A stretch of DNA of 64,000 nucleotides from Lachnospiraceae bacterium (GTDB lineage Bacteria; Bacillota; Clostridia; Lachnospirales; Lachnospiraceae): the NCBI GenBank assembly GCA_024696005.1, contig JAILHF010000051.1, forward strand, positions 496,001-560,000, written 5' to 3'. Below the pieces are notes generated by a model. It made no database searches, was not told where the DNA came from, and worked only from the letters and a program-made list of their open reading frames with translations. Below, one piece after another: positions 1 to 58,075 of the stretch; the stretch's first letter is position 1, and each line of letters opens with the position of its first letter. The translations under genes and the position numbers were made by a program.

Positions 1-1341
1 CACCAGACTCAAAAGGAGCAGAACCGTGACCGCCCTGTCGATCTTAGCCAGTCGGTCCGAAAGGACCAGGAGCAGGATGACTGCCGCAAGAAAGATCGCG
101 ATCCCGGGCAGAACGATCTGATACCCGTAGAGCGGCGTCTGTTCGTAGCGCGAATTTGCCATCAGTATCCCGTGATCGTTGGACCAGAAGAAATGATCCG
201 CCAGGGCCAGGATGGTCCCGATCCCCAGGAGCCTTCCAAAGATCCCCCGGCCCTTCTTATCCAGCAGGATATAGATCAGGTTACCCCAGACAAACCAGGT
301 CCCCGCTGCAGAAAGGAGCGGGATGCGCATCAGCGGCAGCAGGTCTCCCACGTGCCGGATCGGAAACTCCGTTGGAGAATCCTCCACGATCCCTGTGATG
401 ATGAAGACCGCCGACAGAAGAAAGAGCACCGCCTCCTTTATAAGCATGGTCCCCCAGCCGGGGTCCTCCGCTTCCCTCCGCCAGAGCCTGATCTTTTTAT
501 CCTTCAGGAAAAGGACCACAAGAGCCGGGATCATGTAGGACATCACGATGCAGACCGAAACGAAAGAAGCCAGGGTATCATCGCGGTCCATCTCCGGAAC
601 ATAGCAGCCCGCAAACGTCGTCACCGAATACATGTACATGCCGGCCAGAAAACCGCCTCCGATGCAGATCTTCTTCACGATCCGCTGCCAGCCGAGACGG
701 GTAACGATGTTCCTGACCAGAGAGAAGGCATTGTTGAAGGTCCAGTAGAGGACCATGGCCTGGGGACAGGGATACAGGACCACCAGGAAAAGCAGCGGGA
801 GCAGAGCCATCTGCAGCTTCTCCTTCAGCCCCAATCCTTTCCCCTTCACATAGATAAATGCCGAGAGCAGATTGATCACCGTCATCAGGATGGGAAGGCA
901 ATTGATCCGCAGTTCTCCGAGCCGGATCAGACCGTCCGATTCGGTAAAGAGCTTTCCCGGGATCCCCTCCACTGCTCCGAGCATGTTATATGCCGCGAGA
1001 AAAAAAGGGATCTGCAAAAGCAGCGGAAAGAGCGTCCTGAGAGCAAAAGCCGGCTTATAGCCGCAGATGCGGTAATAATGCTGCAGCATGTAACTGCGTT
1101 CCTCTCCGCGGAAGACCTTCCGGATCTTTCCCTCCCATTCCTTCATGGAATCGCGCTTTCTGCGCTCCTCCTCCTGCATCGCCTCCGCCTGCCGGTAAAA
1201 GGGCATGGTCAAGAAGCCCACCGCGAGACTCAGGGCCAGAAGCGAGATATGGGTATTCAGTGTCACATGATAAAATGCGAAAAAAAGAACACGCAGAAGA
1301 TATTCGATTGGTCCGATCAGCAGCTTATACATAAGAAACAT
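1..1341 (-). CDS. YidC-like/sulfatase fusion membrane protein, N-terminal part (cut by window edge)
   Basis: This open frame runs off the left edge, so only the first 447 codons are present. The start is an ATG at 1341 with AAGAGG four bases before it; an in-frame ATG at 1332 is the alternative. The translation begins with a YidC/Oxa1-like domain: an amphipathic start (LLIGPIEYLL), TM1 ending in AVGFLTMPFY, a basic cytoplasmic loop, LFPLLLQIPFF, and a later MVLYWTFNNAFS. It continues into further hydrophobic segments, as in the six complete paralogs of this window. The sulfatase domain expected beyond residue 470 lies outside the window and is inferred only from that similarity. The position of the usual YidC groove arginine is Gly. 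The gene is divergent from two YfhO genes, which suggests a shared role in the envelope. Confidence 0.8.
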   Translation of the reverse strand, partial: MFLMYKLLIGPIEYLLRVLFFAFYHVTLNTHISLLALSLAVGFLTMPFYRQAEAMQEEERRKRDSMKEWEGKIRKVFRGEERSYMLQHYYRICGYKPAFALRTLFPLLLQIPFFLAAYNMLGAVEGIPGKLFTESDGLIRLGELRINCLPILMTVINLLSAFIYVKGKGLGLKEKLQMALLPLLFLVVLYPCPQAMVLYWTFNNAFSLVRNIVTRLGWQRIVKKICIGGGFLAGMYMYSVTTFAGCYVPEMDRDDTLASFVSVCIVMSYMIPALVVLFLKDKKIRLWRREAEDPGWGTMLIKEAVLFLLSAVFIITGIVEDSPTEFPIRHVGDLLPLMRIPLLSAAGTWFVWGNLIYILLDKKGRGIFGRLLGIGTILALADHFFWSNDHGILMANSRYEQTPLYGYQIVLPGIAIFLAAVILLLVLSDRLAKIDRAVTVLLLLSLV

Positions 1342-1373
1342 TTTACCTCTTTGACACCCATAAATCAATACGA

Positions 1374-1402: not shown

Positions 1403-1431
1403 CATAAGAAAAAAGATCCGAGGTAGTGACG

Positions 1432-4086
1432 ATGTCTGACGAAAACAAAAAGCTTCTTCAGAACAATAACCTGTATCCTGTTTTTGCCGCCGTTCTGACC
1501 GCGGTGCTCTTTCTCACCATCCTGGCGTTTTCTTCCATACTCGGTTACGGGAACAGGACCATCTTAAGCGGCGACCTGTATGCGCAGTATACCGCCTTTA
1601 TCCGTCACTTCCTGGAAGTCCTGAAGGGAAAGGGAAATCTGTATTACAGCTTCTCCATCTATCTCGGAAATCCCGCGGCTTCCACCTTTGCCTATTATTG
1701 CCTGAGTCCCTTCAATCTTCTTTATCTGATCCCCGGGATCTCCATGTCCGCCATGACCATCCTTGTCGTGACACTCAAACTTTCCCTGGCAGCCGCTTCT
1801 TTTCAGCTCTTTCAGGGCGGCTTTCTGAAGAACAGGACTCTCTTCTCCGTCATGTTCTCCGTCTGCTACGCCCTTTCCTCTTTTTCCGTCATGATGTCCA
1901 TGCACATCATGTGGCTGGATGCACTCTATATCCTGCCGGTGCTGATCCTTCTGATCGCACGCTTTGTGAATGGTTCTTCCTTTCTTCCCCTTATCCCGGC
2001 CTATGCACTCCTTTTTCTGACCAATTTCTACATGGGCTACATCGCCGGGATCTTCAGCGCTCTTTGCTTTATGGCGCTGCTGGTCCGGGAATGCCCGTCC
2101 TTCGGAAAAAAAGAGCTGCAAAAAGCCTTGAAAAAGGGATCGCTCTTTGCACTTTCCGTTCTGCTGGCTGCAGCCTGCTGCGCGGCGATCCTGCTCCCTG
2201 CCGCTTACGAGCTCTTAAACGGTCGCTCCGAGGGCGCTTCGGACTTTGCCTTCGTACAGACCACGATCCCCGATGTGATCAATAACCTGTTCCTCGGCGG
2301 GATCCAGGGGCTCGGCAGCCCCATCCCCCTGATCTATTGCGGCCTGCCTGCTCTTCTGCTCCTTCCCCTCTTCTTTTCCTCGAAAAGGATCAGCCGCAGG
2401 GACAAAGCCCTGGGAGCCGCTCTGCTGCTCTTTTATCTGGCCGCCTCGCAGTTCCTGCCGGTATACCGCTTCCTGCACGCTTTTGAAGCGCCCAACTGGT
2501 ATGCGCACCGCTACGCGTTCTGCGCGGTCTTCCTGCTCCTTACGCTTGCTTCCGCGGCCTTCCCGGAGATCGATCACTTTTCCCTCCGGAAAGCCCTGGC
2601 TTATGTTGCTGCACTCCTGCTGCTCTATGCGGTCATGATCCCCTTGCAGCATGCATTTTACAGCAGCTATCCCACGAACAGCTACGGCTTGTTTCTGCTA
2701 AACGGCTGTTTCCTTGGCCTTTATCTGCTGCTGGCCGTCCAAAACAGCAGCCGTTCCCGCAGCATCGCCTGCCTGCTCCTTTGTGCGGAACTGGTGATCA
2801 ACGGTGCCACTGCCGTTTCCCGCAATGATTTCGGATATCACAGCGAGGAAGACATCGCTTCCTGGGAGCGTAATGAAAGCACCCTCATCCCCGCCCTGCT
2901 CGAGGGCGATCCGGGCTTTTACCGAATCCGTGTGCTCGATGAGCATTGCCTGAATGCGCCGTCACGCTTCCATTATCCGGGACTCAACAGCTTTGCGACC
3001 GTTGACAATGCAAAACTGCGCTCCACGCTGTCCGCACTGGGCATCGGCACCTCCTTCATGACCATTTACGATCACGGCTACACGGATCTGACCGACATGC
3101 TGCTGGGCGTGAAGTACACGATACTCCCCGACGGACAGATAAGCGGCTCCCCACTGGCCCTGCCGGTAGGCTTTATGAGCAGCACGAGCGTGATCTCCTG
3201 GCGTCCGACTGCGAATGTTTTCGAGAACCAGGAGACCCTCGTCAACAGCATCACAGACGGGGATTATGATTTTTACACGCCCCTGGAGACAAAAGCCGAA
3301 AACATCCTCACCAAGAACATGGATGTCCTTCCTTTTTCGGACTCCGTCATCTTCCAGCATGTCAGCGATCTTTCCGCAAATGGGACCGTAAGCTTCACCT
3401 TCCCTGACGCGAGCGGACTTGAAGTGCTCGGACACATCACCCCGGCTGAGGAACCGGTCCTGCTCGGCAGTGCACCCGAGATCGCCGACGTCTCCGTAGT
3501 GGGCTTTTCCAACAGAGTAAAGCTTTCGGACGGCTCGATCTTTGCCGTCCCCAAAGATGAGAAAGGGGTACCCACCGCAAACCTTCTGTTTTCCTCCGGG
3601 AGCAGCTTTGACTATTCGGTCCGCGGCATGGATTTCGTCTCCTACGACCGCAGCCGCCTGTCGGAGCTTTACCGCGACATTTCCGCAAATGCCCTCACCG
3701 TCACTTCCCGGAGCGACGGCGAGCTGACAGGCGTGGTCACCTCTACCGAGGATCGTCCCATACTCCTCATCACCATCCCTTATGCCAAGGGCTGGGAGAT
3801 CTATGTCGACAACAATTCCGCATATGTGGGCGTTTCGGTGAACGCGAGCTTCATGAGCCTCTATCTCAGCCCCGGAGCCCACGAGATCCGCCTGCATTAC
3901 GAGAATCCGTTTGCTTTCGCCGGAAAGATGATCAGCGGCGGCGCTCTGATCCTTTGCCTGATCATGCTCCTGATCGCAAGGCGCGCCGCAGAGAATGCCG
4001 CCAAGCGGAAAGCAAGCGCAGAGGAAGATCCGGCTGCAGATAAATCCGAACAGCCGAAGAAGAAAGACACGGAGGACGCCGAATGA
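1432..4086 (+). CDS. YfhO family polytopic membrane protein
   Basis: An 884-aa protein of the YfhO family, GT-C-like membrane proteins. In Bacillus subtilis YfhO is linked to moving a sugar from a lipid carrier onto lipoteichoic acid outside the cell. The signs are an N-terminal TM followed by ILSGDLYAQY (Asp about residue 48, where GT-C enzymes carry an acidic residue in the first outer loop), about a dozen TMs up to residue 460, a soluble extracytoplasmic region, and the family's C-terminal IPYAKGWEIYVD plus SPGAHEIRLHY before a last TM. The tail is charged and Lys/Glu rich. The ATG at 1432 is chosen because GAGG lies 8 bases upstream; the GTG at 1426 is too close. It overlaps the next gene by an ATGA. 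The sugar and acceptor are unknown; no CsbB-type glycosyltransferase is in the window. Confidence 0.85.
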   Translation: MSDENKKLLQNNNLYPVFAAVLTAVLFLTILAFSSILGYGNRTILSGDLYAQYTAFIRHFLEVLKGKGNLYYSFSIYLGNPAASTFAYYCLSPFNLLYLIPGISMSAMTILVVTLKLSLAAASFQLFQGGFLKNRTLFSVMFSVCYALSSFSVMMSMHIMWLDALYILPVLILLIARFVNGSSFLPLIPAYALLFLTNFYMGYIAGIFSALCFMALLVRECPSFGKKELQKALKKGSLFALSVLLAAACCAAILLPAAYELLNGRSEGASDFAFVQTTIPDVINNLFLGGIQGLGSPIPLIYCGLPALLLLPLFFSSKRISRRDKALGAALLLFYLAASQFLPVYRFLHAFEAPNWYAHRYAFCAVFLLLTLASAAFPEIDHFSLRKALAYVAALLLLYAVMIPLQHAFYSSYPTNSYGLFLLNGCFLGLYLLLAVQNSSRSRSIACLLLCAELVINGATAVSRNDFGYHSEEDIASWERNESTLIPALLEGDPGFYRIRVLDEHCLNAPSRFHYPGLNSFATVDNAKLRSTLSALGIGTSFMTIYDHGYTDLTDMLLGVKYTILPDGQISGSPLALPVGFMSSTSVISWRPTANVFENQETLVNSITDGDYDFYTPLETKAENILTKNMDVLPFSDSVIFQHVSDLSANGTVSFTFPDASGLEVLGHITPAEEPVLLGSAPEIADVSVVGFSNRVKLSDGSIFAVPKDEKGVPTANLLFSSGSSFDYSVRGMDFVSYDRSRLSELYRDISANALTVTSRSDGELTGVVTSTEDRPILLITIPYAKGWEIYVDNNSAYVGVSVNASFMSLYLSPGAHEIRLHYENPFAFAGKMISGGALILCLIMLLIARRAAENAAKRKASAEEDPAADKSEQPKKKDTEDAE

Positions 4087-6704
4087 AAGCCTTGAAAAAA
4101 GTCCGCGTCCCCCTGCTGGCCTTTCTCCTCCCCGCGCTCTGCTTTATCATCTTTCTCGCGCTGTATGGCGTGCTCGGCTACGGCAACTACACCATACTCC
4201 GCGGCGATCTGTATGTGCAGTATGTCGATTTCATACAGCTCTTTCTCCGCGCCCTGAAGGGAAAGGAAGACTTCTGGTACACCTTCTCGCAATACTTCGG
4301 ACAGCCCTCCGTGCTGACCTATGCCTATTATTGCTTCAGTCCCTTTAACCTCCTCTATCTGCTCGATTTCATTTCGGTCCCCGCCATGACGGCCGCCATC
4401 ATCACGATGAAGATCGGCCTGTGCGGAACCGCATTTTCCGTATTCGCGAAGAAGGCCCTGAAGTGCAGCGATGCCGCAGCCGTGTTCTTCGCACTTTGTT
4501 ATGCCCTTAACAATTTCAACGTCGTTTTCCATTTCGACATGATCTGGCTGGAATCCGCCTATCTGCTTCCGATCATCATCCTTCTGATCGTAAAGCTCGT
4601 CCGCGAAGGGCGCAGCCCGCTTCTGATCCCGGCCTGGATCCTGCTCTTTCTGTCCAATTTCTACATGGCCTATATCGTCGGGGTCTTTTCCGCACTTGTG
4701 TTCCTGGCCCTGCTCTTTTTGAAAGCACGAAAAAACGCCGCCGAATGGAAGGAAGCTTTTTTCCTCTGTCTGCGCTTTACCTCCTCGGTCGTCCTGGCCG
4801 CCGGCTGCTGCGCCGCCATCCTGCTTCCGAGTGCCAAATACCTGCTCTCGCACATAGCTGCGGATAATTTCGACTTCATCCCGCTGGAAAACAACATCTT
4901 CGACACGGCAAACGCCCTCATGATGGGTGTCATGCCAGATGTTGACAACCGCACGCCGCTGATCTACTGCGGGCTTCCGGTCCTGCTCTTTCTTCCCTTT
5001 TATTTTTTCCGAAAGAGCATCCCCCTGCGCGAACGCGTCCTTTCCGGCCTGCTTTTGCTCTTTTCCTTCCTGAGTCTGGTCTGGCTGCCGGTCTTCATCT
5101 TCATGCACGCCTTTGACTACCCGAATTTCTATTTCTTCCGCAACAGCGCCAGCGTCTGCTTCCTGCTCTGTGTTCTGGCCTGCCGCGTCTTCACGGAAAG
5201 CCGCGGGACACTTAGCACCAAAAAACTCTGGCCCTATATCGCCGGCCTGATCTGCCTGTATTCCTTCATGATCAACTTCTGGCCCATGCACCGCTCCTAT
5301 TCGGATGTCACCAATTCGGCCGGTGAAATGGCCGTAAACATCGTATTTCTCGTCATCTGGGGCTTCCTGCTCACGCCTTCGGCAAAACCTCTGCCCGACT
5401 GTCCGAAACGGCGGCGCATCCTGACCGCATGCCTCTTTTTGCTGCTCTGTACCGAACTTACCCTTCAGGCACATCTGGCCGCCAGCCACATGGACCTTAC
5501 GCCCATCAGCGAAGCGGAATACAACAGCTGGTATAACGCGCAAAAAAGCATCCTTTCCTCGATCCCCGAAGATGACAATGACCTGTACCGCATCGCGATG
5601 TACGGAGACAACAACTACAACTCCTCGGCCTTTTACGGTTATAACAGCTTCAACACCTTTTCTTCTTCCGACGATTACGAACTGCGCTACGCCCTCTTTA
5701 ACCTGGGGATCGCCGCCGTCAACCGCAGCATCACGGAAAACGGCTATACGGATCTGACCTATATGCTCTTTGACGCAGCCTATACCGGGAACATCACGGC
5801 CGTAAACGACGACGACTCCAACAGGGTCTCCGAGCTGACACCCTTCCCTTACCGGCTTTCCATCGGCTACATGGTATCCGACGGGATCCTTTCATACGAG
5901 GCCGGTCCCGATCCCTTCGAGAACCAGGAACGCTTTGCCAACGCCATCAGCGGCCACTCTTATCACTTTTTTGACCGTCTTGCCATGGAAGACGTGGATG
6001 CCAGCAGCTACAATGCCGATATGCGCACGATCGGAAACTATACCTTCTATTATAAGAAGACATCCATGCTCCCCACCTCCGGCGTGTATTATACCGTAAA
6101 ACAGGAACCTGACCGGCCTTTCATGGTCTGTTTCCGGCAGAATGATCCTTCTGCGACCCTGAACTCCGCCTATCTGATCGGCAGCCGGGACTGCTTTGCC
6201 GTCAGCCTTCCTTTTTCTTCGGGCTGCATCGTCAAGGCCGGCGCCATGCCGGACGATTTCGGCCCGGACACGGAAACAGCCATCATATATTTCTCATCTG
6301 ACAGCGATTCGGATGTCTATTGCAGCGATATCTTTTTTGCCCGCTACAACCCGGACGACCTGCCGAAGCTCCACGCCGATCTGCTCCCTGGGACCCTGAA
6401 AGTCCATGAGCACAGTACCTCACGGATCGTCGGAAGTGTAACGGCCACGGAAGACCGCCCCATCCTCTTCACCTCCATCCCCTGGGATGAAGGCTGGTGC
6501 GCATGGGTTGACGGACAGGAAGCTGCCGTGGAAAACGTGATGGGCAGCGCCTTCCTTTCGCTGCGTCTTACTCCCGGCGAGCATGAGGTCGAACTTCGCT
6601 ATATCGCCCCCGGCAGCAAGGCCGGGATGATCGTCAGTCTGGTCTCACTTCTTCTTGCCATCGTCTATATGGTGATTTCCGGCCGCCCCAAAAAAACAGC
6701 ATAA
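4083..6704 (+). CDS. YfhO family polytopic membrane protein (second copy)
   Basis: An 873-aa paralog of the preceding gene, starting in its stop codon (ATGA), so the two are very likely translationally coupled. It carries the same landmarks: GDLYVQY after TM1 (Asp about residue 42), FAYYC/YAYYCFSPFNLLYLL-type text in the second outer loop, about a dozen TMs to residue 450, an extracytoplasmic domain, and a C-terminal IPWDEGWCAWVDG and TPGEHEVELRY followed by a final TM. YfhO proteins are thought to act as undecaprenyl-phosphosugar-dependent glycosyltransferases at the outer membrane face. Two different copies in tandem suggest two sugars, two acceptors, or a heteromeric enzyme; the sequence does not decide. 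No clear terminator follows, though a weak hairpin (ACGGA/TCCGT) and a T-run lie within 50 bases. Confidence 0.85.
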   Translation: MKALKKVRVPLLAFLLPALCFIIFLALYGVLGYGNYTILRGDLYVQYVDFIQLFLRALKGKEDFWYTFSQYFGQPSVLTYAYYCFSPFNLLYLLDFISVPAMTAAIITMKIGLCGTAFSVFAKKALKCSDAAAVFFALCYALNNFNVVFHFDMIWLESAYLLPIIILLIVKLVREGRSPLLIPAWILLFLSNFYMAYIVGVFSALVFLALLFLKARKNAAEWKEAFFLCLRFTSSVVLAAGCCAAILLPSAKYLLSHIAADNFDFIPLENNIFDTANALMMGVMPDVDNRTPLIYCGLPVLLFLPFYFFRKSIPLRERVLSGLLLLFSFLSLVWLPVFIFMHAFDYPNFYFFRNSASVCFLLCVLACRVFTESRGTLSTKKLWPYIAGLICLYSFMINFWPMHRSYSDVTNSAGEMAVNIVFLVIWGFLLTPSAKPLPDCPKRRRILTACLFLLLCTELTLQAHLAASHMDLTPISEAEYNSWYNAQKSILSSIPEDDNDLYRIAMYGDNNYNSSAFYGYNSFNTFSSSDDYELRYALFNLGIAAVNRSITENGYTDLTYMLFDAAYTGNITAVNDDDSNRVSELTPFPYRLSIGYMVSDGILSYEAGPDPFENQERFANAISGHSYHFFDRLAMEDVDASSYNADMRTIGNYTFYYKKTSMLPTSGVYYTVKQEPDRPFMVCFRQNDPSATLNSAYLIGSRDCFAVSLPFSSGCIVKAGAMPDDFGPDTETAIIYFSSDSDSDVYCSDIFFARYNPDDLPKLHADLLPGTLKVHEHSTSRIVGSVTATEDRPILFTSIPWDEGWCAWVDGQEAAVENVMGSAFLSLRLTPGEHEVELRYIAPGSKAGMIVSLVSLLLAIVYMVISGRPKKTA

Positions 6705-8294: not shown

Positions 8295-10925
8295 TTACTG
8301 ATGTTCAATTTTTCTTCTTTCGTGCATCATTTTATGATTTTCCGATAAGATCAGGAGCAAAAACAGGATCAGACCACCCAGGGCCAAAAGGCGTCCTTCC
8401 GCTTCGCCCGATGCTGTAAAACGCAGTTCCAGAGCGTGTTCCCCGGGTGTCAGCACCACTGCGCAGAAGCTGTTTTTCACCACGGGATACAACGGCTGCG
8501 CCTGTCCGTCTACCGTCACGCTCCAGCCTTTATCGTAGGGGATCGTGAACAGAAGCAGGGGCTGCTCGGCCGTGGAGGTGACTTTCCCCGTAAAATGGCC
8601 GTTTCGGGCGCTTTCCGCACGGAAGGGACTGCGGGATAAATGGGCATAAGCCCTGTCAAGCGCTTCCTCATCCTGATAGCAGAAATACTGATCCGCATAG
8701 CGAAAACACTTATCCGGGCCGTCAAAATCGGCCAGACGCGCCACAAAGGCGTTTCCGTCCGCCGTCATCTCCAGGATCGCGTTTTCCGCCGCAATGCCGT
8801 AACGCGCGCCACTGCCTTTCCGGTCCGCAGGGGAGAACAGCGCCGTATTCATCGCCATGTCCGGATCCGGCAGCTTTTCCTTCGTTTCTCCGGTATAGGC
8901 GGAAAGCTGAAGATACATATAAGCGTGTTCATAAGCCTCCCGGGGGATCCCAAAGAGTACATCCCCGTAGTTTTCAGCAGAAAGCGTGCGGATCTCGTAT
9001 CCCGCATCCGTTTCTCGAAGATCCGCATTGTCCGTCTCATAAGCGAAAGCTTCCGCAGGCACGTACGCCCTGATCCGCTCCCCGCAGAGAGCGGACAGAA
9101 GCCTGTTCTGGTTCTCAAAGGGATTGCCGTCAAACTCCTCCATTTCCAGTACCGACGGGGATACCATGTATCCCAGCGGCAGCGCGCGTTCATACAGTAC
9201 GGGGGCTTCCCCGGCCGTGCCCGCTTCTTCTCCCTTTCCGGACATGCGCATGCGGATGCGGATGCCAAAGAGCATGTCACTTGCATCCGTGGCTCCGGCC
9301 TGGGTATAACGCATGGAGCTCACTTCATCCCCAAGCCTTACCAGCAGGCTCTGCAGGGCGGAATAATTGGATGAAGCAAACTGCCCGATCCCGCGGTAGC
9401 CGTACAGCGCGCTGTGGTTCATGACCGGCGTGTTGCCGGGAAAAGCCCGGTACAGGAGGCCGTCCCCGTTTCCGTATTGCTGCGTCTGAGACAGAAGTTC
9501 CCTGCTCTCCTCCTCCCAGACAAGAGCCTGCTTTGCATCCACAAGCCCCTGCTCCCTGCTGTTGATCAAAAACTGCGCTCCCAGCTCGCTTATCACAAGA
9601 ACGAAGGCTGCCGCGCGGAAGAAGTCCCCGGACTTTGCTTTGCAAAGCAGAACGATCATCCAGCAAAGATAAAAGACCGCGCTGCCCGCGAGCGCAAAGA
9701 CGAAGTCTTTTCTTCCTTCGCTTCCCGAAAGGAAGCCGTGCATAACGATCACAAGCTCATAAAGCGCCAGCTGGATCCCAAAATACAGAACGGTCCTGCC
9801 CTTCGTCGCGCTCTCCCCTGCCCCTTTATACAGGGCCCTTGCCGCAAGGAGCAGAAAGAAGAACACATACAAAAAGGCATAACGCACGGTAAAGCCGTCG
9901 GGCCGGTTAAAGGCATGCAGCAGGGAATACAGAGGATCCACATACAAGCTTAAGGGCAGGCTGAGTGCCGCAGCGGCACAGAGCAGCCTTTCACGCTTCG
10001 GGATCTCCTTGTTCGCAAAGTAGAGCGGAACAAGCAAAAGCATGGGGATCCCTGCATACAGAAACGGCACCTCCGTCTCAATGCTGAGCGCCCTGCCGAA
10101 CAGGAAAGCATAGAGCAGATCCCAGAACGGGATCCTCTCATGCAGGGCAACGGAGCTTATGCCGGTCCCGCTTAAAAAGAATGCGATCGCCGGCGCCAGA
10201 AACACCATGCTGATCAGCACGGCGCAGACCACCGCATAAAGCCAGCGCAGCAGAAAGCGGATATTCTTGCGGAGGAAGCCGGAGCCGTCCCGCAAAAACA
10301 GGATCGCGAGCAGGGACGCCGCCGAAAACAGTCCGATCAGATAGCCGCTGTAAAACTGTATCATAAAAGCCGCTGCATAGGCCGGCACCAGGGCCGCCAC
10401 ACGCTTTGTCCTTACGGCGTAAAACAGAGCCCACATCACCAGCGGCAAAAGATAAAGCCCGTCCAGGAGATTCACGCTCAGAAGATATTCCGCGGAAAAT
10501 CCGCACAGGCCGTAGCAGAGCGCAAAAAGGATATTCTCCCTCCGCTCCCATCCCAGGCCGAAACGGAGGAACAGATGGAAACACAAAGCCGCCAGCGCAA
10601 GCCGCAGGATCATCCCCGCGATCATCGCGGCATAGGCATCCGGGATCAGAAGAAAGAGCAGGGTAGTAGGGCTGTAGGCACAAAAGGCATACAGAAGCGC
10701 CGTATTCTGTCCCAGGGACGTGTCCATGCTGTAAAAGAGCGGGCCGCCCTCCCGGATCCGGCGCGCCAGCATCATCTGCATGGATGTCATCTGGTCATAG
10801 CTGTCCGTGTCCATGGCGCGGAAAGCCCCGCCCGGCATGATCCCCGCCAGGAAAAAAGCCGCACTCACGATCCCGGCAGCCAGAAAAAACGTGACGATCA
10901 GTTCCCATGCATCCCTGCGCTTCAT
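8295..10925 (-). CDS. YfhO family polytopic membrane protein (third copy)
   Basis: An 876-aa YfhO-type protein. TM1 is followed by FRAMDTDSYDQM (acidic residues about 39-41 in the first outer loop), then about a dozen TMs to residue 460, an extracytoplasmic region, and the family's ending IPYDKGWSVTVDG and TPGEHALELRF plus a last TM. Its start codon overlaps the stop of the upstream YidC-like/sulfatase gene (ATGA), so the two are almost certainly translated together. It ends 110 bases before the pilin gene. YfhO proteins are linked to sugar decoration of lipoteichoic acid; here the neighbours also allow a role in decorating pili. The acceptor cannot be read from the sequence. Confidence 0.85.
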   Translation of the reverse strand: MKRRDAWELIVTFFLAAGIVSAAFFLAGIMPGGAFRAMDTDSYDQMTSMQMMLARRIREGGPLFYSMDTSLGQNTALLYAFCAYSPTTLLFLLIPDAYAAMIAGMILRLALAALCFHLFLRFGLGWERRENILFALCYGLCGFSAEYLLSVNLLDGLYLLPLVMWALFYAVRTKRVAALVPAYAAAFMIQFYSGYLIGLFSAASLLAILFLRDGSGFLRKNIRFLLRWLYAVVCAVLISMVFLAPAIAFFLSGTGISSVALHERIPFWDLLYAFLFGRALSIETEVPFLYAGIPMLLLVPLYFANKEIPKRERLLCAAAALSLPLSLYVDPLYSLLHAFNRPDGFTVRYAFLYVFFFLLLAARALYKGAGESATKGRTVLYFGIQLALYELVIVMHGFLSGSEGRKDFVFALAGSAVFYLCWMIVLLCKAKSGDFFRAAAFVLVISELGAQFLINSREQGLVDAKQALVWEEESRELLSQTQQYGNGDGLLYRAFPGNTPVMNHSALYGYRGIGQFASSNYSALQSLLVRLGDEVSSMRYTQAGATDASDMLFGIRIRMRMSGKGEEAGTAGEAPVLYERALPLGYMVSPSVLEMEEFDGNPFENQNRLLSALCGERIRAYVPAEAFAYETDNADLRETDAGYEIRTLSAENYGDVLFGIPREAYEHAYMYLQLSAYTGETKEKLPDPDMAMNTALFSPADRKGSGARYGIAAENAILEMTADGNAFVARLADFDGPDKCFRYADQYFCYQDEEALDRAYAHLSRSPFRAESARNGHFTGKVTSTAEQPLLLFTIPYDKGWSVTVDGQAQPLYPVVKNSFCAVVLTPGEHALELRFTASGEAEGRLLALGGLILFLLLILSENHKMMHERRKIEHQ

Positions 10926-13672
10926 CTTCCGCTCTCTCCCTGTTCCTTCCAGACGCTCCAGTTTGCCTCATCAAAAATGCCGTCATGCACCGCAAACCAG
11001 GGACCGTCCGAGGTATCAAAGCAATGACGGTCCACCGGAAGATTGATGCCCTCGTGATCCCAGCTGGCCGTCACATGAAGCTCCCCTTCTTTTTCCTGCG
11101 TTCCGATCGCGTTCCCGGTAAAGGGATTGACCGGATCTTTGATCAGGCCCTCCATTGCGATCGACGGCACATCCGCATTCGTCATGAAGCTGTCGGACAC
11201 CGCAAACCCGTGGCTGTCAAAATCCTTGACCAAAAGAAGCGGGTTGAACATCGTGACATCCAGCTTTCCGTCCAGCATGACGAACTCGTCAAACTGCGCC
11301 AGGTCGTGGCCGTGATCCGAAACCAGGATGATGCGTGTATTGTCATAAACACCTTCTTCGCGAAGATAGTCAAAATACTTTCCGAGCGTGAGCAGGGCCG
11401 CCATGTCGATCTTGTAATGCTGATCCTGCTTGACGGTACGCAGATACAGAGTCCGTCCGTTCTCATCCGTCTTCCGGCTGGTGTCATAGGCGCTGTTATC
11501 CACCCGTGCGGCCGGTTCATAGTCGGGGAGCTGCAGGTCGCTCAGCTCGTGGGTCGTATTGTTTGTCATGATCATCACATGGTTTTCGCCGCTGCTCTCC
11601 ACTTCCGTGATGTCCGACATGTGTTTGAGCACCAGATAGGATTGCATGAAGGAGGTCTGCAGATCGTGCTCCTTTCCGAAAACGGACTGGTAATTCCCGC
11701 CGTCATAGAGCTGGTCAAAAAAGCAGAGCGGCGCAAGACGCAGCAGGCTGTAGAAGACAAAGCTGCGTCCGCGCAGCAGCGTGCCCGTCTGCGCATCCGT
11801 ATCCCCGCCGCCGAAATAGCCCATCAGGTAGGAGGCCTTCACATTCGGATCTTCGTCAAAGATCGTAAGGTCCGGGGTTAGACTGTAGCCCGCATAGGGC
11901 GGATCGGTCACCGAAACCTTCCAGCCCTCTTCCCCGAAAAGTACGGGAAGAAGGCGCAGGGCTTCATTCTGCTTGTCTCCGAGAAGCTCTTCCTCTCTTT
12001 TGTTCATGTTCTCGGGCGTATATTCGTATCCTCCGTAGATCGATGCCGCGGCGAAGACGGTCTTGCAGCCGAAGGAAAGCGTATCCGGATAATAGACAAA
12101 GCCGTCCAGCATCTCCTTCAGCTCGGGTTTTTCAGCAAGCATGAAGGGGATATAGCTCGAAATGGCCCGATCCAGCATGATGATCATCACATTCCTGCCA
12201 TTGCGGTCCAGGGTAAAGAAGGTCTCGCTCTCCTCCCCGCTCTCCGTATCCGCAACCTCCATGCTCTCCGCTCTCGTCTTCGCCTCCGAAAGAGCCGAAG
12301 AAGCGGAAACATAGCTTTTCCCGGAAAAGAGTAGCATTGCGATCAGCGCTGCCTGACCGAAGAAGGACAGCCAGGCAGGTTTGCACTTTCCCAGGACAGA
12401 AACCACTACGACGATGAGCGTCAGAAGAAGCAGATTCCCAAAGATGCGTCCCCCGCCGATCTGCGGTTCCAGATCAAATTCCAGCGAGATGTTAAGGCTT
12501 CCGAAGCCCCTTCCGTTCAGGAAGAAGTCGGCGAGAAAGCAACCCAGGAGGGCCGAGGAAAGCAGCTTCACGCCTTTTTTGTACTTCCCGGCCAGAAGCC
12601 AGATCAGGCTGCCCCAGCCGATGAAGATCCCGGCATAGACCAGGGAGGAATGTGCACAATAGCGGAAAGGATCCTCATAGTGGAAAAGGTCCACGAAATC
12701 CTCCGGCGCTGCCGAGATCACACCCAAAGGGATCACACAACCTGCCAGCAGGGTCAGGGCCAGGAGCACGATGAACGTTTCGCCGTAGGACGCCTTCCCC
12801 TTCAAAAGTCCCGCAAGTTTTTCAGGGAGTAACGGAAAGCGCTGCCCCAGAAGGTATAGGAGATAACACAAAAGAGGCAGAAGGATCAGCAGCAGGTAAT
12901 GGTTGTGCGCCGAATACCAGTCCGGCGATCCCATCCCGAGGGCTTCGTGATAAACGTACAGAAGCGGCAGCACCGAAAGACAGCCGAAGATAAACAGGCG
13001 CTTGTTCTGTATCCATCTGCGGTATACGTTTTTGCCCAGCGAAAAAATGTTGTTGAAGATCCAGTAAAGCACCAGGCCGGAAGGACTCCGGTACAAAAGC
13101 AGCAAAAATACAAGCGCGATGGCAGCCATCTGCACGAGCTTCTTTTTATCCTTTTTGTCAACATAGCTCAGGGCCGATGCCAGATTGATGGCGGTCATGA
13201 TAAAGGGCAGCAGGTTAAAGCGCATCCCGAAAAGACGGATCAGCCCGTCTTCCCTTGCCAGATCGGCGATCCCGCAGAATTCCACCTTCTGCAGGATACG
13301 AAGCTCGGAGATGTAGCGGTATGCCGCAAGAAAAAAGGGGATCTGCAGGAAAAGGGAAAGACTGCCCTTCAAAGCCATGAGCGGATGATAATGATGCACA
13401 CGGTACAGGCGGTTGGTCATCATCATCCGTTCATCTCCCTGAAAGGAAGAACGGATATGCTTCAGCCAGACACTCATGCTCTCCTGCCGCTTTTTCTCCT
13501 CTGCCTCCATGCGTTCCGCCTCGCGGTACAGAGGCAGCGTGATCACGTTTACAAACGCACTCAACACGACCAAAGTGATCACCGTCTCGTTAAACACCTG
13601 GTAGGTACGGTAGGTGACCATATCAAAGAGATATTCCAATGGCGTGAGAAAAAGCGTGTTCAAAAGTGACAT
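10922..13672 (-). CDS. YidC-like/sulfatase fusion membrane protein (pilus locus copy)
   Basis: A 916-aa protein. Residues 1-215 form a YidC/Oxa1-like domain (TM1 to FVNVITLPLY, then LSLFLQIPFF about 105-114 and SGLVLYWIFNN about 198-208). More TMs fill 225-450. From about 490 there is a sulfatase/LtaS-fold domain outside the membrane: MLDRA (Asp 501), Thr 538 in GCKTVF before GGYEY, His 708 in TTHE, Asp-His-Gly 786-788. Such domains move phospho-alcohol groups onto polymers or proteins, or hydrolyse esters. The YidC groove arginine is Asn 42. The longer frame from 13714 would begin inside the pilC terminator, so the ATG at 13672 with GGAAGG upstream is chosen. It is coupled to the following YfhO gene. 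Substrate unknown. Confidence 0.85.
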   Translation of the reverse strand: MSLLNTLFLTPLEYLFDMVTYRTYQVFNETVITLVVLSAFVNVITLPLYREAERMEAEEKKRQESMSVWLKHIRSSFQGDERMMMTNRLYRVHHYHPLMALKGSLSLFLQIPFFLAAYRYISELRILQKVEFCGIADLAREDGLIRLFGMRFNLLPFIMTAINLASALSYVDKKDKKKLVQMAAIALVFLLLLYRSPSGLVLYWIFNNIFSLGKNVYRRWIQNKRLFIFGCLSVLPLLYVYHEALGMGSPDWYSAHNHYLLLILLPLLCYLLYLLGQRFPLLPEKLAGLLKGKASYGETFIVLLALTLLAGCVIPLGVISAAPEDFVDLFHYEDPFRYCAHSSLVYAGIFIGWGSLIWLLAGKYKKGVKLLSSALLGCFLADFFLNGRGFGSLNISLEFDLEPQIGGGRIFGNLLLLTLIVVVVSVLGKCKPAWLSFFGQAALIAMLLFSGKSYVSASSALSEAKTRAESMEVADTESGEESETFFTLDRNGRNVMIIMLDRAISSYIPFMLAEKPELKEMLDGFVYYPDTLSFGCKTVFAAASIYGGYEYTPENMNKREEELLGDKQNEALRLLPVLFGEEGWKVSVTDPPYAGYSLTPDLTIFDEDPNVKASYLMGYFGGGDTDAQTGTLLRGRSFVFYSLLRLAPLCFFDQLYDGGNYQSVFGKEHDLQTSFMQSYLVLKHMSDITEVESSGENHVMIMTNNTTHELSDLQLPDYEPAARVDNSAYDTSRKTDENGRTLYLRTVKQDQHYKIDMAALLTLGKYFDYLREEGVYDNTRIILVSDHGHDLAQFDEFVMLDGKLDVTMFNPLLLVKDFDSHGFAVSDSFMTNADVPSIAMEGLIKDPVNPFTGNAIGTQEKEGELHVTASWDHEGINLPVDRHCFDTSDGPWFAVHDGIFDEANWSVWKEQGESGR

Positions 13673-13695
13673 TCCGAAAAACCTTCCGTCTGATG

Positions 13696-13727
13696 AAAAA
13701 CGGAGCCGAAGCATTGCTCCGGCTCCG
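13696..13727 (-). terminator. Intrinsic terminator after pilC
   Basis: On the minus strand CGGAGCCGGAGCA pairs with TGCTTCGGCTCCG around a two-base loop and is followed by TTTTT. It closes the pilT-pilB-pilC unit and argues that the downstream fusion gene begins at 13672. Confidence 0.85.
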
Positions 13728-18009: not shown

Positions 18010-18720
18010 TTACTTTTCCTTCAGATGGATCTGTTTGGCCGTAAGGAGGTCATTTACCGAATCGACCTCCGTCCATTCGTAATTCGAGATATCCGTGTAA
18101 TACAGGCGGAAATCGTTCTTGAAGATCAGCTGAACCAGCGCATTCTCGTACCACTGGTCATAAAAGCCCTGCTCGATCATGCTCTCCAGCTCCCCGCGCA
18201 TCAGAAGCGCGCTTTCACGGTCAAGCTTGGATACACCGGCATACTCGCCGTAATAGCTGGTCAGGTCCTTGCTCATGACCAGGACCTGATCTCCGGAGAC
18301 CTCCACATTGTAATCCCCGTCCGTCTTGATGGAGCTGTCCACGAGCACATAAGCCTTCTCCACCGGCCGGCACATGACCTTTTCGACCAGTTCGTCCGAC
18401 ATCACGATATCCCCGTCGATGAGCACCACATTGTCCGCATCCAGATGCTCGCGGGCAAACCACAGAGACGCGATGGAATTGGTCACCTCGTAAAACGGGT
18501 TGTAGATGAAGGTCACGCCGGTAACCTGCTCCTCCACCGCTCTGTGCATGTGTCCGGTAACGATGACGATATCCGCCTCGGCATCATGCTTCTTGATCAG
18601 GGCGACCATCCTCTGAAGCAGGGTCGTCTCCTCGTCAAGCTTGTATAAAGACTTCGGATGCTTCAGTGTCAGAGGCTGCAGGCGGGTTCCCTTCCCCGCC
18701 ACCATAAATATGTATTTCAT
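18010..18720 (-). CDS. LicC/PntC-like nucleotidyltransferase
   Basis: A 236-aa sugar-phosphate or alcohol-phosphate nucleotidyltransferase of the LicC type. The N-terminal MVAGKGTRLQPLT followed by HPKSLYKL is the NTP-binding signature (GxGTRLxPLT plus Pro-Lys), VLIDGDIV supplies the metal-binding Asp, and the protein ends YEWTEVDSVNDL, the same kind of ending as LicC (EIDSVQDY). LicC makes CDP-choline; the related PntC makes CMP-2-aminoethylphosphonate. The neighbouring PhnW-like transaminase and TagF-like transferase make a CDP/CMP-activated amino-alcohol or aminophosphonate plausible as product, but the substrate cannot be read from sequence. Last gene of a four-gene operon, 27 bases after the DUF2284 gene. 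Confidence 0.8.
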   Translation of the reverse strand: MKYIFMVAGKGTRLQPLTLKHPKSLYKLDEETTLLQRMVALIKKHDAEADIVIVTGHMHRAVEEQVTGVTFIYNPFYEVTNSIASLWFAREHLDADNVVLIDGDIVMSDELVEKVMCRPVEKAYVLVDSSIKTDGDYNVEVSGDQVLVMSKDLTSYYGEYAGVSKLDRESALLMRGELESMIEQGFYDQWYENALVQLIFKNDFRLYYTDISNYEWTEVDSVNDLLTAKQIHLKEK

Positions 18721-21721: not shown

Positions 21722-21746
21722 CTTAAGCCCCACCTTTCATCCGCTC

Positions 21747-31241: not shown

Positions 31242-31281
31242 CCCGGCTTCTCCCCACACGATGATCAAAACAACCGTTTTT

Positions 31282-45517: not shown

Positions 45518-45533
45518 AAGCACTATCCCGCGC

Positions 45534-54230: not shown

Positions 54231-54320
54231 TTCTTTCTCCTCCTTCTTTTTCCCGGCCCGCTTCGGGCCTTTGCTCCGCGGCGTCTTTCGCGGTCCGTCC
54301 TCATCGGGCGGCCGTTCAAT

Positions 54321-54348
54321 AAGAAAAGCCGACATCGAAAATGCCGGC
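54321..54348 (-). terminator. Riboswitch expression-platform terminator
   Basis: GCCGGCAT/ATGTCGGC stem with a TTTCG loop followed by TTTTCTT on the minus strand, between the aptamer and dapA. A second hairpin (GGCCCG-AAG-CGGGCC type) lies closer to the gene near 54262-54277. Confidence 0.88.
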
Positions 54349-54364
54349 GTGTTTCTCTTACTGT

Positions 54365-54531
54365 GATAGCGCCCCATCTTCGTTCCAAAGATGACAGTGA
54401 TACCGGTATTTCCGGCACCCCCAAGGCAGTCGGTATGGCCCCTTCCCCTTTCGGCGGTTTTGCCTTTCCCTTGCCTTCCCCTGCGCCCATCGCATCCGGC
54501 AGACTACTGATCAAACCCGCAACCTCTATCT
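54365..54531 (-). promoter_or_regulatory. Lysine riboswitch (L box)
   Basis: About 167 bases. The conserved blocks of the L box occur in order on the minus strand: GATAGAGGTTGCG, GATCAGTAG, AAGGCAAAACCGCCGAAAGG, GCCTTGGGGGTGCCG, CACTGTCATC and GATGGGGCGCTATC, the last pairing with the first to close the aptamer. Lysine binding should favour the downstream terminator and shut off dapA, dapB and possibly hisA. Confidence 0.95.
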
Positions 54532-54551
54532 CCTATTCAATTATACGCATC

Positions 54552-55373: not shown

Positions 55374-55381
55374 GGAACTTC

Positions 55382-58075
55382 TCACTCTCCCGCCTGCTTC
55401 CAGATGCTCCAGTTTTTTTCATCCAGCATGCTGTCATGAACGGCGTACCAGGGGCGGTCCGACGTGTCATACTGCGTGCGGTCCTCCTTCTCGTTCATTC
55501 CGTGCCTGTCCTCCGTTCCCGCCACATGAAGGACGCCCCGTTTGGGCTCATCCGTCATCCGCTTTCCCGTAAAGGGATTGACCGGCTCCACAAGCCCCGA
55601 TATTGCCAGCAGCGGAGCATCCGCATTTGTCATGAAGGCATCCGACACCGTAAATCCCCTGCTGTCAAAATCCTTGTACAGAAGGAGCGGGTTGAAGGAC
55701 ATGGCATCCACTTCTCCCCCGTTCATCAGCATGCTCTCCATCTGTCCCAGGGGATGTCCGTGGTCCGCCGCGATCACGATGCGGGTATTGTCATAGACTC
55801 CCTGCTCGCGCATCCAGTCAAAATAATTCCCCAGCAGCTGCAATGCCGCCATATTGGCCGCATAATGCGATTCGTAGATGGTGTAACCCAGTTCCAGATC
55901 CGGCCCATCCGCCCTCCGGCGTTTCGTCATGTCATAGCCGGTGTTGTCGACCACGGCGGCCGGCACGTAATCCGGCATCTGCAGGACGCTGGGCTCATGG
56001 GTGATGCTGTTCTGCAGCATCACGAAACCGCCGGTCCCGCTGTCCGTGATCTTCGTAAGCTGCGGCATGAGCTGCAGTTCCCTGTAATAATGCATGAAGC
56101 TTACCGAAAGATCCCGCACCTCGGAGGAAAGGACCATGTAATTTCCCCCGTCATAGAGTTCCTCCGTCAGAAGAAGCGGCGCCGAGCGCATGACCGAATA
56201 CCTGACAAAATAACGTTTTCTCTGTTCCAGGAGTCCCGCCATGTTTTCCGGGCTGTCATTGAATTTCCCCTCCATCTGATGCGCACCGATGTAGGGATAG
56301 GGATCGTAGATGGAAAGATCCGGGATGTTGTGATAGTTGGCCATCGGAGGGTCGTAAACATTCACCGCATAACCGGCCTTTCCGAAAAGGACCGGCAGCA
56401 CCGACAATGCCTCGTTATGCTTGATCCTGAGCAGCTCATCGCTTCTTTGGTTCATCGCCTCCGGCATATACTCATAGCCGCCGAAAAGCGACGGGCTCCC
56501 GATGGCCGTCTTCCAGCCAAAGGAAAGTGTATCGGGATAAAAAGTAAAACCGTCCAGTTTTTCCGCAAGCTCCGGCTTTTCATAAAGGATATAGGGGACG
56601 TAGGCACCGATTGCTCTATCCAGCATGATAAAGAGCACATTTTTCCCCTGCCGGTCCAGGACCGCCGTCTCCTTCAGATCCTCCCAGGCATATTTCTGCT
56701 CCGCTTTCTCCGTAGCCTCCGCGATGCCGGAAACCCGCACCACGCCCCAGACTGCGATGCCGATGCAGACAGCACAGACCAGCCGCGAGGCGCTGACGAT
56801 GAGCCGCTGCCTCTTCTTCCAGATCCGGGTGACCGCCGCAAAGACGCCCGCGGCCAGGGCAAGGTTCAAAAGGACGAGCCATAGCGGCGATCTTACCAGA
56901 CCGTCGTAGCGGAGATTGGAATTCAGGCTACCGTAGGACTGTCCGAAGAAGGATACGTTCAGGATCCCGTTCGCCAGAAGCCAGGCAAAAACAGGCCCCA
57001 GAATGGCAAGGCCTTTTTCATCCGCCACCAGTACGGCTATGCCGCCCCACAAAAGAAAGAGACCCGAAAAGACCAGCAAGGAATAGCCCGTATATACCCA
57101 GGGGTTCTGGCCGAAGTAGGGATCGATGAAATCCGCGGGGGAAGAGGCCGTCACGATCACCGGAAGGGTCACCCCGAAGAACAGGCTGAGGGCCAGAAGG
57201 ATCGGGATAAAGCTCCTCTTTTTCGTCCCGGCGGCCGTTCGCAGCGGCAGCAGATCCCCGAACGAGACCAGCAAAAACAAAAAGATCAGAAGCCAGAAGA
57301 ATCCGTGGTCGTGCACATACCAGTCCGCATATCCCAGTGCAATGACCTTCAGGAAGATATAATGCAGGGGAAGCAGGGCCATGAAAAAAGCCACCATCAA
57401 ACGTCGCCGTTTCGGAAAGACGCCCGCCAGGCTTCTCCCCAGCGAGATCAGATTGTTGCAGGTCCAGTAGATCAAAAGGCCCGCCGCCGAATCATACAGA
57501 AGGACCAGAAAGATCAGGGGCAGAAGAAAAGCCTGCAGCTTCTCTCTCCTGCTCTTGTCCTTTGAAAAAAAGAAAGCCGACAGGAGGTTTATGCCCGTCA
57601 TCACGAAAGGGAGCAGATTAAAGTGCCTGCCTCCCAGCACCAACAGAGCGTCCGGGTAAGCCAGATCCCGGATCTCACCGTAGGGAACCGCTTTCAGGAT
57701 GTTCAGGTCCGAGAGATAATGATAGGCCGCAATAAAAAAAGGGATCTGCAGAAGCAGCGGAAGACTACCCAAAAGCTGCCGCAGGGGAAGATACCCGCGA
57801 AGACGGTAATAGCGGTCCGTCATCATCTGCTTTTCATCCCCGGAAAACGTCTTTTTGATATGGGAAAGCCATCTCTCCATGGCCTTCTGTTCTTCCCGTT
57901 CCTTTTTCTGCAGTTGCTCCGCCCGTCTGTACAGGGGGGCCGTCAGAAGGTTCACGATGATGCTTAGGCCGATCAGGGCCGGCACCGGCGCAAGATAGAC
58001 ATTGTACAGCTTATACACCAGAACATCCATCAGATATTCCAGCGGCTGTATGAAGAACAGATATAAAAGTCTCAC
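55382..58075 (-). CDS. YidC-like/sulfatase fusion membrane protein (stand-alone copy)
   Basis: An 897-aa member. YidC-like part: FFIQPLEYLMDVLV, IVNLLTAPLY (Asn 42 for the groove Arg), GSLPLLLQIPFF 103-114, AGLLIYWTCNN 198-208. Middle TMs to about 450. Sulfatase part: IMLDRA (Asp 486), Thr 523 in GWKTAI before GGYEY, ITHEP (His 693), ADHG (Asp 771-Gly 773), FMTNAD, PVNPFTG, tail NWSIWKQ. Start is GTG at 58075, GGAG ten bases upstream. It is not coupled to another envelope gene; the next gene downstream has its own promoter seven bases after the stop. Closest in sequence to the 25964 and 10922 copies by eye. Confidence 0.87.
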   Translation of the reverse strand: MRLLYLFFIQPLEYLMDVLVYKLYNVYLAPVPALIGLSIIVNLLTAPLYRRAEQLQKKEREEQKAMERWLSHIKKTFSGDEKQMMTDRYYRLRGYLPLRQLLGSLPLLLQIPFFIAAYHYLSDLNILKAVPYGEIRDLAYPDALLVLGGRHFNLLPFVMTGINLLSAFFFSKDKSRREKLQAFLLPLIFLVLLYDSAAGLLIYWTCNNLISLGRSLAGVFPKRRRLMVAFFMALLPLHYIFLKVIALGYADWYVHDHGFFWLLIFLFLLVSFGDLLPLRTAAGTKKRSFIPILLALSLFFGVTLPVIVTASSPADFIDPYFGQNPWVYTGYSLLVFSGLFLLWGGIAVLVADEKGLAILGPVFAWLLANGILNVSFFGQSYGSLNSNLRYDGLVRSPLWLVLLNLALAAGVFAAVTRIWKKRQRLIVSASRLVCAVCIGIAVWGVVRVSGIAEATEKAEQKYAWEDLKETAVLDRQGKNVLFIMLDRAIGAYVPYILYEKPELAEKLDGFTFYPDTLSFGWKTAIGSPSLFGGYEYMPEAMNQRSDELLRIKHNEALSVLPVLFGKAGYAVNVYDPPMANYHNIPDLSIYDPYPYIGAHQMEGKFNDSPENMAGLLEQRKRYFVRYSVMRSAPLLLTEELYDGGNYMVLSSEVRDLSVSFMHYYRELQLMPQLTKITDSGTGGFVMLQNSITHEPSVLQMPDYVPAAVVDNTGYDMTKRRRADGPDLELGYTIYESHYAANMAALQLLGNYFDWMREQGVYDNTRIVIAADHGHPLGQMESMLMNGGEVDAMSFNPLLLYKDFDSRGFTVSDAFMTNADAPLLAISGLVEPVNPFTGKRMTDEPKRGVLHVAGTEDRHGMNEKEDRTQYDTSDRPWYAVHDSMLDEKNWSIWKQAGE

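Follow-up and report, generated by a model that had tools for sequence, protein, structure and literature searches.

A fused YidC-like/sulfatase-fold protein family and its TagF/TarL-like partner in gut Clostridia, candidates for head-group transfer to the cell surface

Fusion genes of the window and their fold

The window analysed here, a 64,000-nucleotide stretch of Lachnospiraceae DNA, carries seven minus-strand genes (F) in which a YidC-like domain is followed by extra transmembrane (TM) helices and then by a sulfatase/LtaS-fold domain. Six are complete and one is cut at the window edge and whole in the genome, in keeping with the seven copies counted in the first-pass annotation. The complete copies are F1 (55382..58075, 897 residues), F2 (38943..41624, 893 residues), F3 (31376..34036, 886 residues), F4 (28698..31268, 856 residues), F5 (25964..28684, 906 residues) and F6 (10922..13714, 930 residues). 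F1, the copy that was modelled, has 7 TM helices between its YidC-like residues 1-220 (57416-58075) and its catalytic residues 471-897 (55385-56665, both minus strand); F4 is missing the extra TM6-TM7 hairpin between the halves. F7 (1..1368) contributes only the YidC-like domain and TM helices to the window, and its entire gene encodes 906 residues (L013:7649-10369). The start of F3 lies 3 bases past a gene read by eye as lepA.

F6 overlaps by 4 bases the gene for a YfhO family (PF09586) membrane protein (8295..10925, minus strand), and two further members of that family are encoded on the plus strand (4083..6704 and 1426..4086). Overlaps of the same length join F5 to a polytopic membrane protein gene (23898..25967, minus strand) and F8, another copy, to the polytopic membrane protein gene L012:13415-14962. 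Between 23898..25967 and a gene designated G lies a second gene of this kind (21777..23885, minus strand); both products look glycosyltransferase-C-like by eye only, the first with no Pfam family above cut-off and the second with no Pfam family. G itself (20402..21733, minus strand) encodes an N-terminal hydrophobic anchor (YIDPGTGSMLF) and a CDP-glycerol glycerophosphotransferase-type domain (PF04464). In the same gene run are a class V aminotransferase (19296..20375, minus strand; nearest solved relative 3f0h, E 1.1e-90), which resembles 2-aminoethylphosphonate aminotransferases yet falls under that family's cut-off, and a DUF2284 metal-binding protein (18748..19299, minus strand). A LicC-like nucleotidyltransferase (18010..18720, minus strand) matches the CTP:phosphocholine cytidylyltransferase 1jyk with E 2.8e-9.

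The architecture proposed at first pass is borne out by sequence and by fold searches. All seven F proteins match PF02096 with 60.5-77.4 bits (gathering score 35), so the Oxa1-superfamily match whose absence had been named beforehand as the point against that proposal is present. Recovery of both domains in one chain by Pfam was partial, PF00884 scoring above cut-off in only two of six (F3 at 38.2 bits). The structural check, run on F1, recovered both halves in a confident model: the N-terminal model is a five-TM YidC fold with its cytoplasmic hairpin, and the C-terminal part is a sulfatase fold. Whole-model search rows mostly span residues 476-897, so that the lack of YidC in those rows carries no meaning, and the N-terminal model was therefore searched separately. 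The TM order is five helices (YidC), two extra and five more before the catalytic domain. Loop charges are mostly positive-inside, with the short loop 246-256 as the exception, and together with the model and fold searches they place the sulfatase fold in an outward domain. Fold and TM layout resemble those of LtaS and PbgA/YejM.

Across 110 F proteins, D486, T523, H693 and H772 (F1 numbering) are invariant and D771 is present in 109; all nine copies of the window's genome have the full set of five. In the F1 model T523 opens a helix and D486 comes after a strand, as the superfamily predicts, and we infer from this that T523 is the counterpart of the LtaS threonine. When F was aligned by profile with an LtaS-like sequence, the match did not extend past the DHG block. 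F matched LtaS (4uoo) with E values of 0.063 and 0.007, and the F profile matched the LtaS-like protein of the same genome with a probability of 2.5%.

Conservation and distribution of the family

Conservation within F is highest in the YidC-like domain. Mean pairwise identity is 55.9% there, as against 46.9% in the catalytic domain and 30.5% in the five TM helices, and YidC-like identity exceeds catalytic identity in 5630 of 5995 pairs. The underlying alignment of 110 F proteins comprises 102 of 117 listed proteins from elsewhere (15 were dropped by eye as likely near-copies) and eight from the window's genome; further domain alignments held 85 of 97 slices plus six (A5) and 32 of 97 plus six (A6). 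Many polar residues of this domain are invariant among the 110. In a divergent member (locus L104) it is still 44% identical over 226 residues, beside a catalytic domain diverged almost beyond recognition. A domain conserved to this extent is not vestigial.

At the groove position that we take to be E. coli R366, placed by alignment, none of the 110 F proteins has Lys or Arg (N 95, S 13, G 1, C 1). A second alignment gave 0 of 91 F, while 25 of the 28 stand-alone YidC proteins from the class carry such a residue. Both ordinary YidC proteins sampled from the same family, that of the window's genome included, have Tyr there, so loss of the charge in F is no proof of a new function, and the argument that it marks a non-insertase is weakened. 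None of the seven F proteins of the window reaches an NCBIfam YidC equivalog cut-off, and only F4 (28698-31268; 86.2) reaches that of the TIGR03592 domain model (84.3).

The window's genome holds nine F genes within 66 kb and one G. Besides these it encodes an ordinary YidC and an LtaS-like protein (L094), both distinct from F. Its F copies are 32-47% identical to one another. A FastTree phylogeny of 111 rows was built from these nine and 102 of 209 others, of which two were picked deliberately and 100 sampled randomly; in it the nine fall inside an 18-row set with nine rows from elsewhere; the own/other label needs four changes on this tree, three of them forced by well-supported branches. 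Recent tandem duplication and assembly artefact are ruled out by this mixing and by the low identities. A plasmid-borne family was likewise rejected: F1 had no match among 72,556 plasmid records, a set from which records close to the window's genome may be excluded.

F-type fusions are widespread in gut and rumen bacteria. The pairing of the two domains, which the first-pass annotation had expected to recur in related genomes, does so in 8 of 245 genomes of the class, 7 of 150 of the family (149 genera) and 27 of 35 of the genus. Among the minority of listed rows with a source name, F is mostly called 'YidC/Oxa1 family membrane protein insertase', and pieces of F are called 'sulfatase-like hydrolase/transferase' or 'hypothetical protein'; current database names thus hide a widespread fused family. 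Literature searches, in which subscription journals were largely outside coverage, found no paper on this fusion, and the published family with the same domain pair that would have spoken against novelty did not appear there.

Searches with the separate halves returned 943 proteins for the N-terminal part and 661 for the C-terminal part. The best 120 of the former mostly look like contig-end fragments, and the best 120 of the latter mostly like fragments, to judge by the length of their contigs, except for two Coriobacterial proteins, P0345 (730 residues, 43 member sequences) and P0330, which appear to be without most of the YidC-like domain. Judged from these sequences, that domain does not appear to be required everywhere. 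P0298, in which a LicC start is joined to the catalytic domain on a single 2997-base contig, was set aside as a possible assembly or deletion product.

A partner gene and neighbouring head-group genes

Gene context and sequence point to a partner for F that is new here: G, a membrane-anchored TagF/TarL-like (PF04464) protein with RPHPQ and SDFS-type motifs and, by eye, a single, N-terminal TM helix. G was present in 56 of 79 fetched loci (57 genes, 27 of which were aligned with the window's G as A4). At 55 of these 56 loci an F gene shares the strand of G and lies no more than 162 bases from it, and 14 of the 57 G genes overlap F by 4 bases. In the family survey G was found in the same seven genomes as F (Fisher 3e-12), and in the class survey (G at E < 1e-100) in seven, all among the eight with F (Fisher 8e-13); these surveys scored at most six and three F candidates per genome, respectively, and counted genomes as independent despite their relatedness. 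The genus survey found G in 24 genomes, all among the 27 with F. F occurred with no G match in G278 of the class survey and in G001, G014 and G439 of the genus survey.

Genes for activating head groups recur at the same loci. By profile, 32 of 77 loci (the 79 less L015 and L016, where a simple ORF caller found no F) contain at least one gene of the CDP-choline or CMP-aminoethylphosphonate kinds, L056 by a weaker aminotransferase match only; the profiles were built from members of these same loci, and the Pfam check covered representatives. LicC-type nucleotidyltransferases occur in 29 loci, choline kinase in 15, a LicB-like permease in nine and PEP mutase in four, a fifth PEP-mutase locus (L041) having been dropped as a lone cytidylyltransferase-like protein. 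The other 45 loci had no head-group gene within the stretch examined, many being short contigs. Nucleotidyltransferases make up 32 of 615 genes at most five genes from F and 4 of 267 farther away, a modest enrichment (p 0.006).

Nucleotidyl-activation operons with F were found at L100, L101, L102 and L106, and members of three operons were checked by Pfam. L106 has F, G, a nucleotidyltransferase, a class V aminotransferase, PEP mutase, a TPP decarboxylase and LicD. At L102 the order is choline kinase, G, F, nucleotidyltransferase, with no LicB gene between choline kinase and G, and at L104 a lone cytidylyltransferase-like protein stands between G and F. The candidates in the window's genome are only the LicC-like nucleotidyltransferase and the aminotransferase; PEP mutase above cut-off and PF01633 choline kinase were absent. 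Since F genes often lie beside phosphocholine- or phosphonate-activation genes, F likely passes such groups to the surface.

A candidate relay, its alternatives and known systems

Our main reading, to which we give a probability of roughly 0.45, is that F and G form a two-sided relay likely to carry a phosphate- or phosphonate-linked head group out of the cytoplasm and onto a surface polymer. The neighbouring enzymes, to judge by their families, would produce the head group in cytidylyl-activated form: CDP-choline where the locus is of the lic type, CMP-aminoethylphosphonate where it is a phosphonate locus. G, as a CDP-donor-type enzyme, would attach the group to a carrier lipid on the inner side of the membrane, and the YidC-like domain, with its polar, uncharged groove, would pass the loaded lipid to the outer leaflet, the weakest of these steps. 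The outward sulfatase-fold domain would then accept the group, using its invariant threonine and a metal site, and transfer it to a polymer of the wall or to a lipid polymer, acting in concert with the coupled glycosyltransferase-like membrane proteins. Several F paralogs in one genome would serve distinct acceptors or head groups. G could instead build a polymer inside. Of the two functions suggested at first pass, surface polymer synthase or phospho-alcohol transferase, the outward transferase is supported by the catalytic set, the topology, G and the head-group genes; a polymer synthase is possible and less favoured.

More tentatively, the relay may rest on an Oxa1/YidC fold that has given up protein insertion to serve as a conduit for head-group lipids, built into one chain with an outer transferase. 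G would load phosphocholine, aminoethylphosphonate or a related group onto a lipid inside, the YidC-like domain of F would move that lipid across, and the outer domain of F would hand the group to the surface polymer. The insertase fold would thereby take on a new role, a late step missing from the account of how gut Clostridia decorate their surface with choline and phosphonate would be supplied and, to our knowledge, F would be the first Oxa1-superfamily enzyme. Lipid scrambling in liposomes has been shown for E. coli YidC and yeast Oxa1 (PMC10491306); by analogy, the YidC part could plausibly deliver a lipid-linked substrate, and in vitro scrambling would then gain a dedicated biological role.

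F could alternatively act in the manner of LtaS and GacH, transferring or polymerising glycerol phosphate taken from ordinary phosphatidylglycerol of the outer leaflet, its YidC-like domain only shaping the membrane or docking partners while the choline and phosphonate genes serve other steps. We consider this unlikely. Fold and TM layout agree with it, as do the lone cytidylyltransferase-like protein at L104, placed as for CDP-glycerol, and the YfhO-type neighbours of F in the window, YfhO being linked to teichoic-acid glycosylation. However, a distinct LtaS-like protein is encoded in the same genome, genes for choline and phosphonate activation are found repeatedly in operons with F and G, no other part of F is as well conserved as the YidC-like one, and F largely co-occurs with G, whose CDP-donor family is one that an enzyme using only phosphatidylglycerol would not need.

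Less probable again is that the YidC-like domain is a true insertase for the adjacent glycosyltransferase-like proteins or other membrane partners, with the catalytic domain as a passenger that brings synthesis and assembly to a single site. The clear YidC fold, its very strong conservation and the overlaps of F5, F6 and F8 with polytopic membrane genes would fit. Yet the genome retains an ordinary YidC, the most constant partner seems to have one TM helix only, the groove position holds no Lys or Arg in any of the 110 F, P0345 keeps the catalytic part and appears without most of the YidC part, and the best 120 of the 943 N-terminal matches include only apparent fragments. An inert anchor acquired by chance fusion, for which the truncated Coriobacterial relatives might speak, is strongly disfavoured by the conservation of the domain, higher than in any other part of F, its invariant polar residues and its persistence at L104.

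The proposed F/G relay can be set against several known systems. LtaS and LtaP are barely similar to F in sequence (best E 0.007), and F adds the front YidC-like domain and extra TM helices and is found together with a transferase of CDP-donor type and with genes for activating head groups. The phosphoethanolamine transferases EptA, EptC and MCR-1, which use the ordinary lipid phosphatidylethanolamine as donor and lipid A or similar molecules as acceptors, have no YidC-like domain. Unlike the YidC/Oxa1/Alb3 insertases, F is fused to an outer enzyme domain, is without a groove Lys or Arg in 110 of 110 and scores under every NCBIfam YidC equivalog cut-off. G shares the PF04464 domain and HP and SDxS-type motifs with TagF, TarL and Cps3D (Cps3D 8qoy, E 6e-8; TarL 8va1, E 8e-4), and differs in being short (~420 residues), N-terminally anchored and tied to F. 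Activation genes of the kinds found in the Lic (phosphocholine) and Pnt (CMP-aminoethylphosphonate) pathways adjoin F and G; these two would provide late steps that are either an alternative to the known ones or an addition to them. The available text of Rice et al. 2019 (PMC6697681) describes the later phosphonyl tailoring steps as unknown, including how activated aminoethylphosphonate reaches surface glycans; it names LicD-like phosphotransferases and makes no mention of a sulfatase, YidC or glycerophosphotransferase. F and G provide two recurrent candidate genes for that transfer.

The fusion genes and their surroundings

The first-pass annotation had described seven genes, one of them cut and the others complete, that join, in the same order, a YidC-like membrane domain, extra transmembrane (TM) helices and a sulfatase/LtaS-fold domain. 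This fusion (F) was confirmed for all seven, every one on the minus strand. The complete genes lie at 55382-58075 (F1), 38943-41624 (F2), 31376-34036 (F3), 28698-31268 (F4), 25964-28684 (F5) and 10922-13714, and the seventh, at 1-1368, is cut by the window edge and complete in the genome. The proposed Pfam check placed PF02096, the YidC family, above cut-off in 7/7 copies, and bore out the sulfatase half in part: PF00884 was listed in all six complete proteins but exceeded the cut-off in just two. Two further copies lie just past the edge, giving nine in 66 kb of this 3.75-Mb genome, in which the window spans C73:496001-560000. Besides F, the genome encodes one ordinary YidC, on a different contig, and one separate LtaS-like protein with long low-complexity ends (L094:202-2910).

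Other features share the region. The F cluster also encloses genes of the type IV pilus type (PilC, PilB and PilT by eye; 13754-17884), and pilin-like and flagellar genes, also assigned by eye, lie upstream (L011, L012). A gap between YfhO genes inside the cluster carries a GA-cis RNA (RF02987, 62.4 bits; 6846-6930, minus strand) and a TwoAYGGAY RNA (RF01731, 89.5 bits; 7409-7575, plus strand), and a lysine riboswitch (RF00168, 97.9 bits; 54359-54536, minus strand) stands at the start of what by eye is a dapA-like gene (53343-54377). Four large polytopic membrane proteins (two in 21777-25967, one at 59603-61924 and one at L012:13415-14962) resemble glycosyltransferase-C enzymes by eye and match no Pfam family above cut-off; two of their genes overlap F genes by 4 bases. 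Adjoining F2, the interval 41838-45565 appears by eye to encode three proteins, one AMP-binding and similar to amino acid activating enzymes and another aminoglycoside-N-acetyltransferase-like, which are possibly further surface-decoration functions.

Spread and conservation of F

Recurrence of the domain pair across Clostridia, proposed at the outset as support, was found: at least 551 of at least 591 pattern matches were F relatives, which by record title occur in Lachnospiraceae and other Clostridia and also in Coriobacteriia and a few other groups, mostly from gut and rumen. The best 80 were kept, representing 79 loci. PF02096 was carried by the 120 best of 378 full-length protein matches. 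Among the matches listed, a coriobacterial form (P0345 from Olsenella profusa; P0330) has the F catalytic part seemingly without most of the YidC-like domain, so nature itself supplies a comparison for judging that domain's contribution. No paper on an F-type fusion was found in the literature searched, which was mostly open-access.

In an alignment of 110 F sequences, D486, T523, H693 and H772 (F1 numbering) were invariant and D771 was present in 109; all five residues occur in 9/9 copies from this genome. From its position in the model, we infer that T523 is the nucleophile. Conservation within F is highest in the YidC-like domain, with a mean pairwise identity of 55.9%, followed by the catalytic domain (46.9%) and the five TM helices (30.5%). 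An F-like protein with a strongly diverged catalytic domain (L104:9414-11777), encoded behind G, the PF04464 partner described below, and a cytidylyltransferase-like gene, is 44% identical to a window copy across 226 residues of the YidC-like domain, and its catalytic domain is barely alignable.

Among stand-alone YidC proteins of the class, 25 of 28 carry Lys or Arg at the groove position. F carried a charged residue there in 0/110 and 0/91 sequences; the position is taken by Asn or Ser and, in rare cases, by a different uncharged residue. However, Tyr occupies it in both ordinary YidC proteins sampled from the same family (n=2), which counts against reading much from the loss of charge in F.

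Partner G and head-group genes

G (20402-21733 in the window) is a PF04464-type, TagF/TarL-like protein with an N-terminal hydrophobic anchor; its nearest solved structures by sequence are Cps3D and TarL. It was present within 56 of the 79 loci fetched from the best 80 of at least 551 relatives, and in 55 of these a same-strand F lies no more than 162 bases away; 14 of 57 G genes overlap F by 4 bases. A family survey of 150 genomes from 149 genera placed F in seven genomes and G in the same seven. In a class survey of 245 genomes F occurred in eight, and G (E < 1e-100) in seven of these and in 0/237 others; weaker PF04464 matches (E ~1e-57 and ~1e-61), in longer frames, appeared in two F-less genomes. 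Among 35 genomes of the genus, 27 had F and 24 had G, all within those 27. These surveys share a few genomes, their counts take no account of kinship, and at most three (class) or six (family) F candidates were scored per genome. F and G are likely to act in a single pathway, with a probability of about 0.8.

Using profiles built from members of these same loci, with representatives checked against Pfam, we detected at least one activation gene in 32 of the 77 loci with a called F ORF: a LicC-type nucleotidyltransferase in 29, choline kinase in 15, a LicB-like permease in nine, PEP mutase in four, a phosphonopyruvate-decarboxylase-like gene in three and an AEP-transaminase-like gene in three (one weak). 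The nucleotidyltransferase was commoner within five genes of F (32/615) than further out (4/267; p 0.006). Gene orders include F-G-nucleotidyltransferase-class V aminotransferase-PEP mutase-TPP decarboxylase, followed by LicD after one membrane protein (L106); a nucleotidyltransferase/cytidylyltransferase/PEP mutase fusion, one other gene, TPP decarboxylase, F and G (L101); choline kinase-G-F-nucleotidyltransferase (L102); a nucleotidyltransferase/aminotransferase fusion-G-F (L103); G-cytidylyltransferase-F (L104); and TPP decarboxylase-nucleotidyltransferase-PEP mutase-G-aminotransferase, with F elsewhere (L100). The window run comprises F3, F4, F5, two polytopic proteins, G, an aminotransferase, a DUF2284 protein and a LicC-like nucleotidyltransferase; in its genome, no PEP mutase scored above cut-off and a PF01633 choline kinase is absent. 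The transferred group is rather likely to be of the choline or phosphonate kind in many loci. LicC-type nucleotidyltransferases fused to a class I/II aminotransferase adjoin G and F at L103:5269-7074 and L030:14061-15878, perhaps pointing to a third head-group kind. Adjoining another F-G pair, L107:11370-18784 encodes, by eye, a BCCT-type transporter, nucleotidyltransferase and kinase-type genes, and trimethylamine-methyltransferase-like proteins.

A possible two-sided transfer

F is very likely an active transferase facing outward, as predicted. In the relay favoured here, G would load a cytidylyl-activated head group onto a membrane carrier inside the cell; the YidC-like domain of F would pass the loaded lipid across; and the outer domain of F would transfer the head group by way of a threonine intermediate. 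In the part of its text available, Rice et al. 2019 (PMC6697681) describe the later phosphonyl tailoring steps as unknown, and that text is free of the terms sulfatase, YidC and glycerophosphotransferase. Lipid conduction by the YidC-like part is the most tentative element and somewhat less likely than not. Such passage is reasonable because, in a published study, both YidC and Oxa1 as stand-alone proteins had lipid-scrambling activity in liposomes (PMC10491306).
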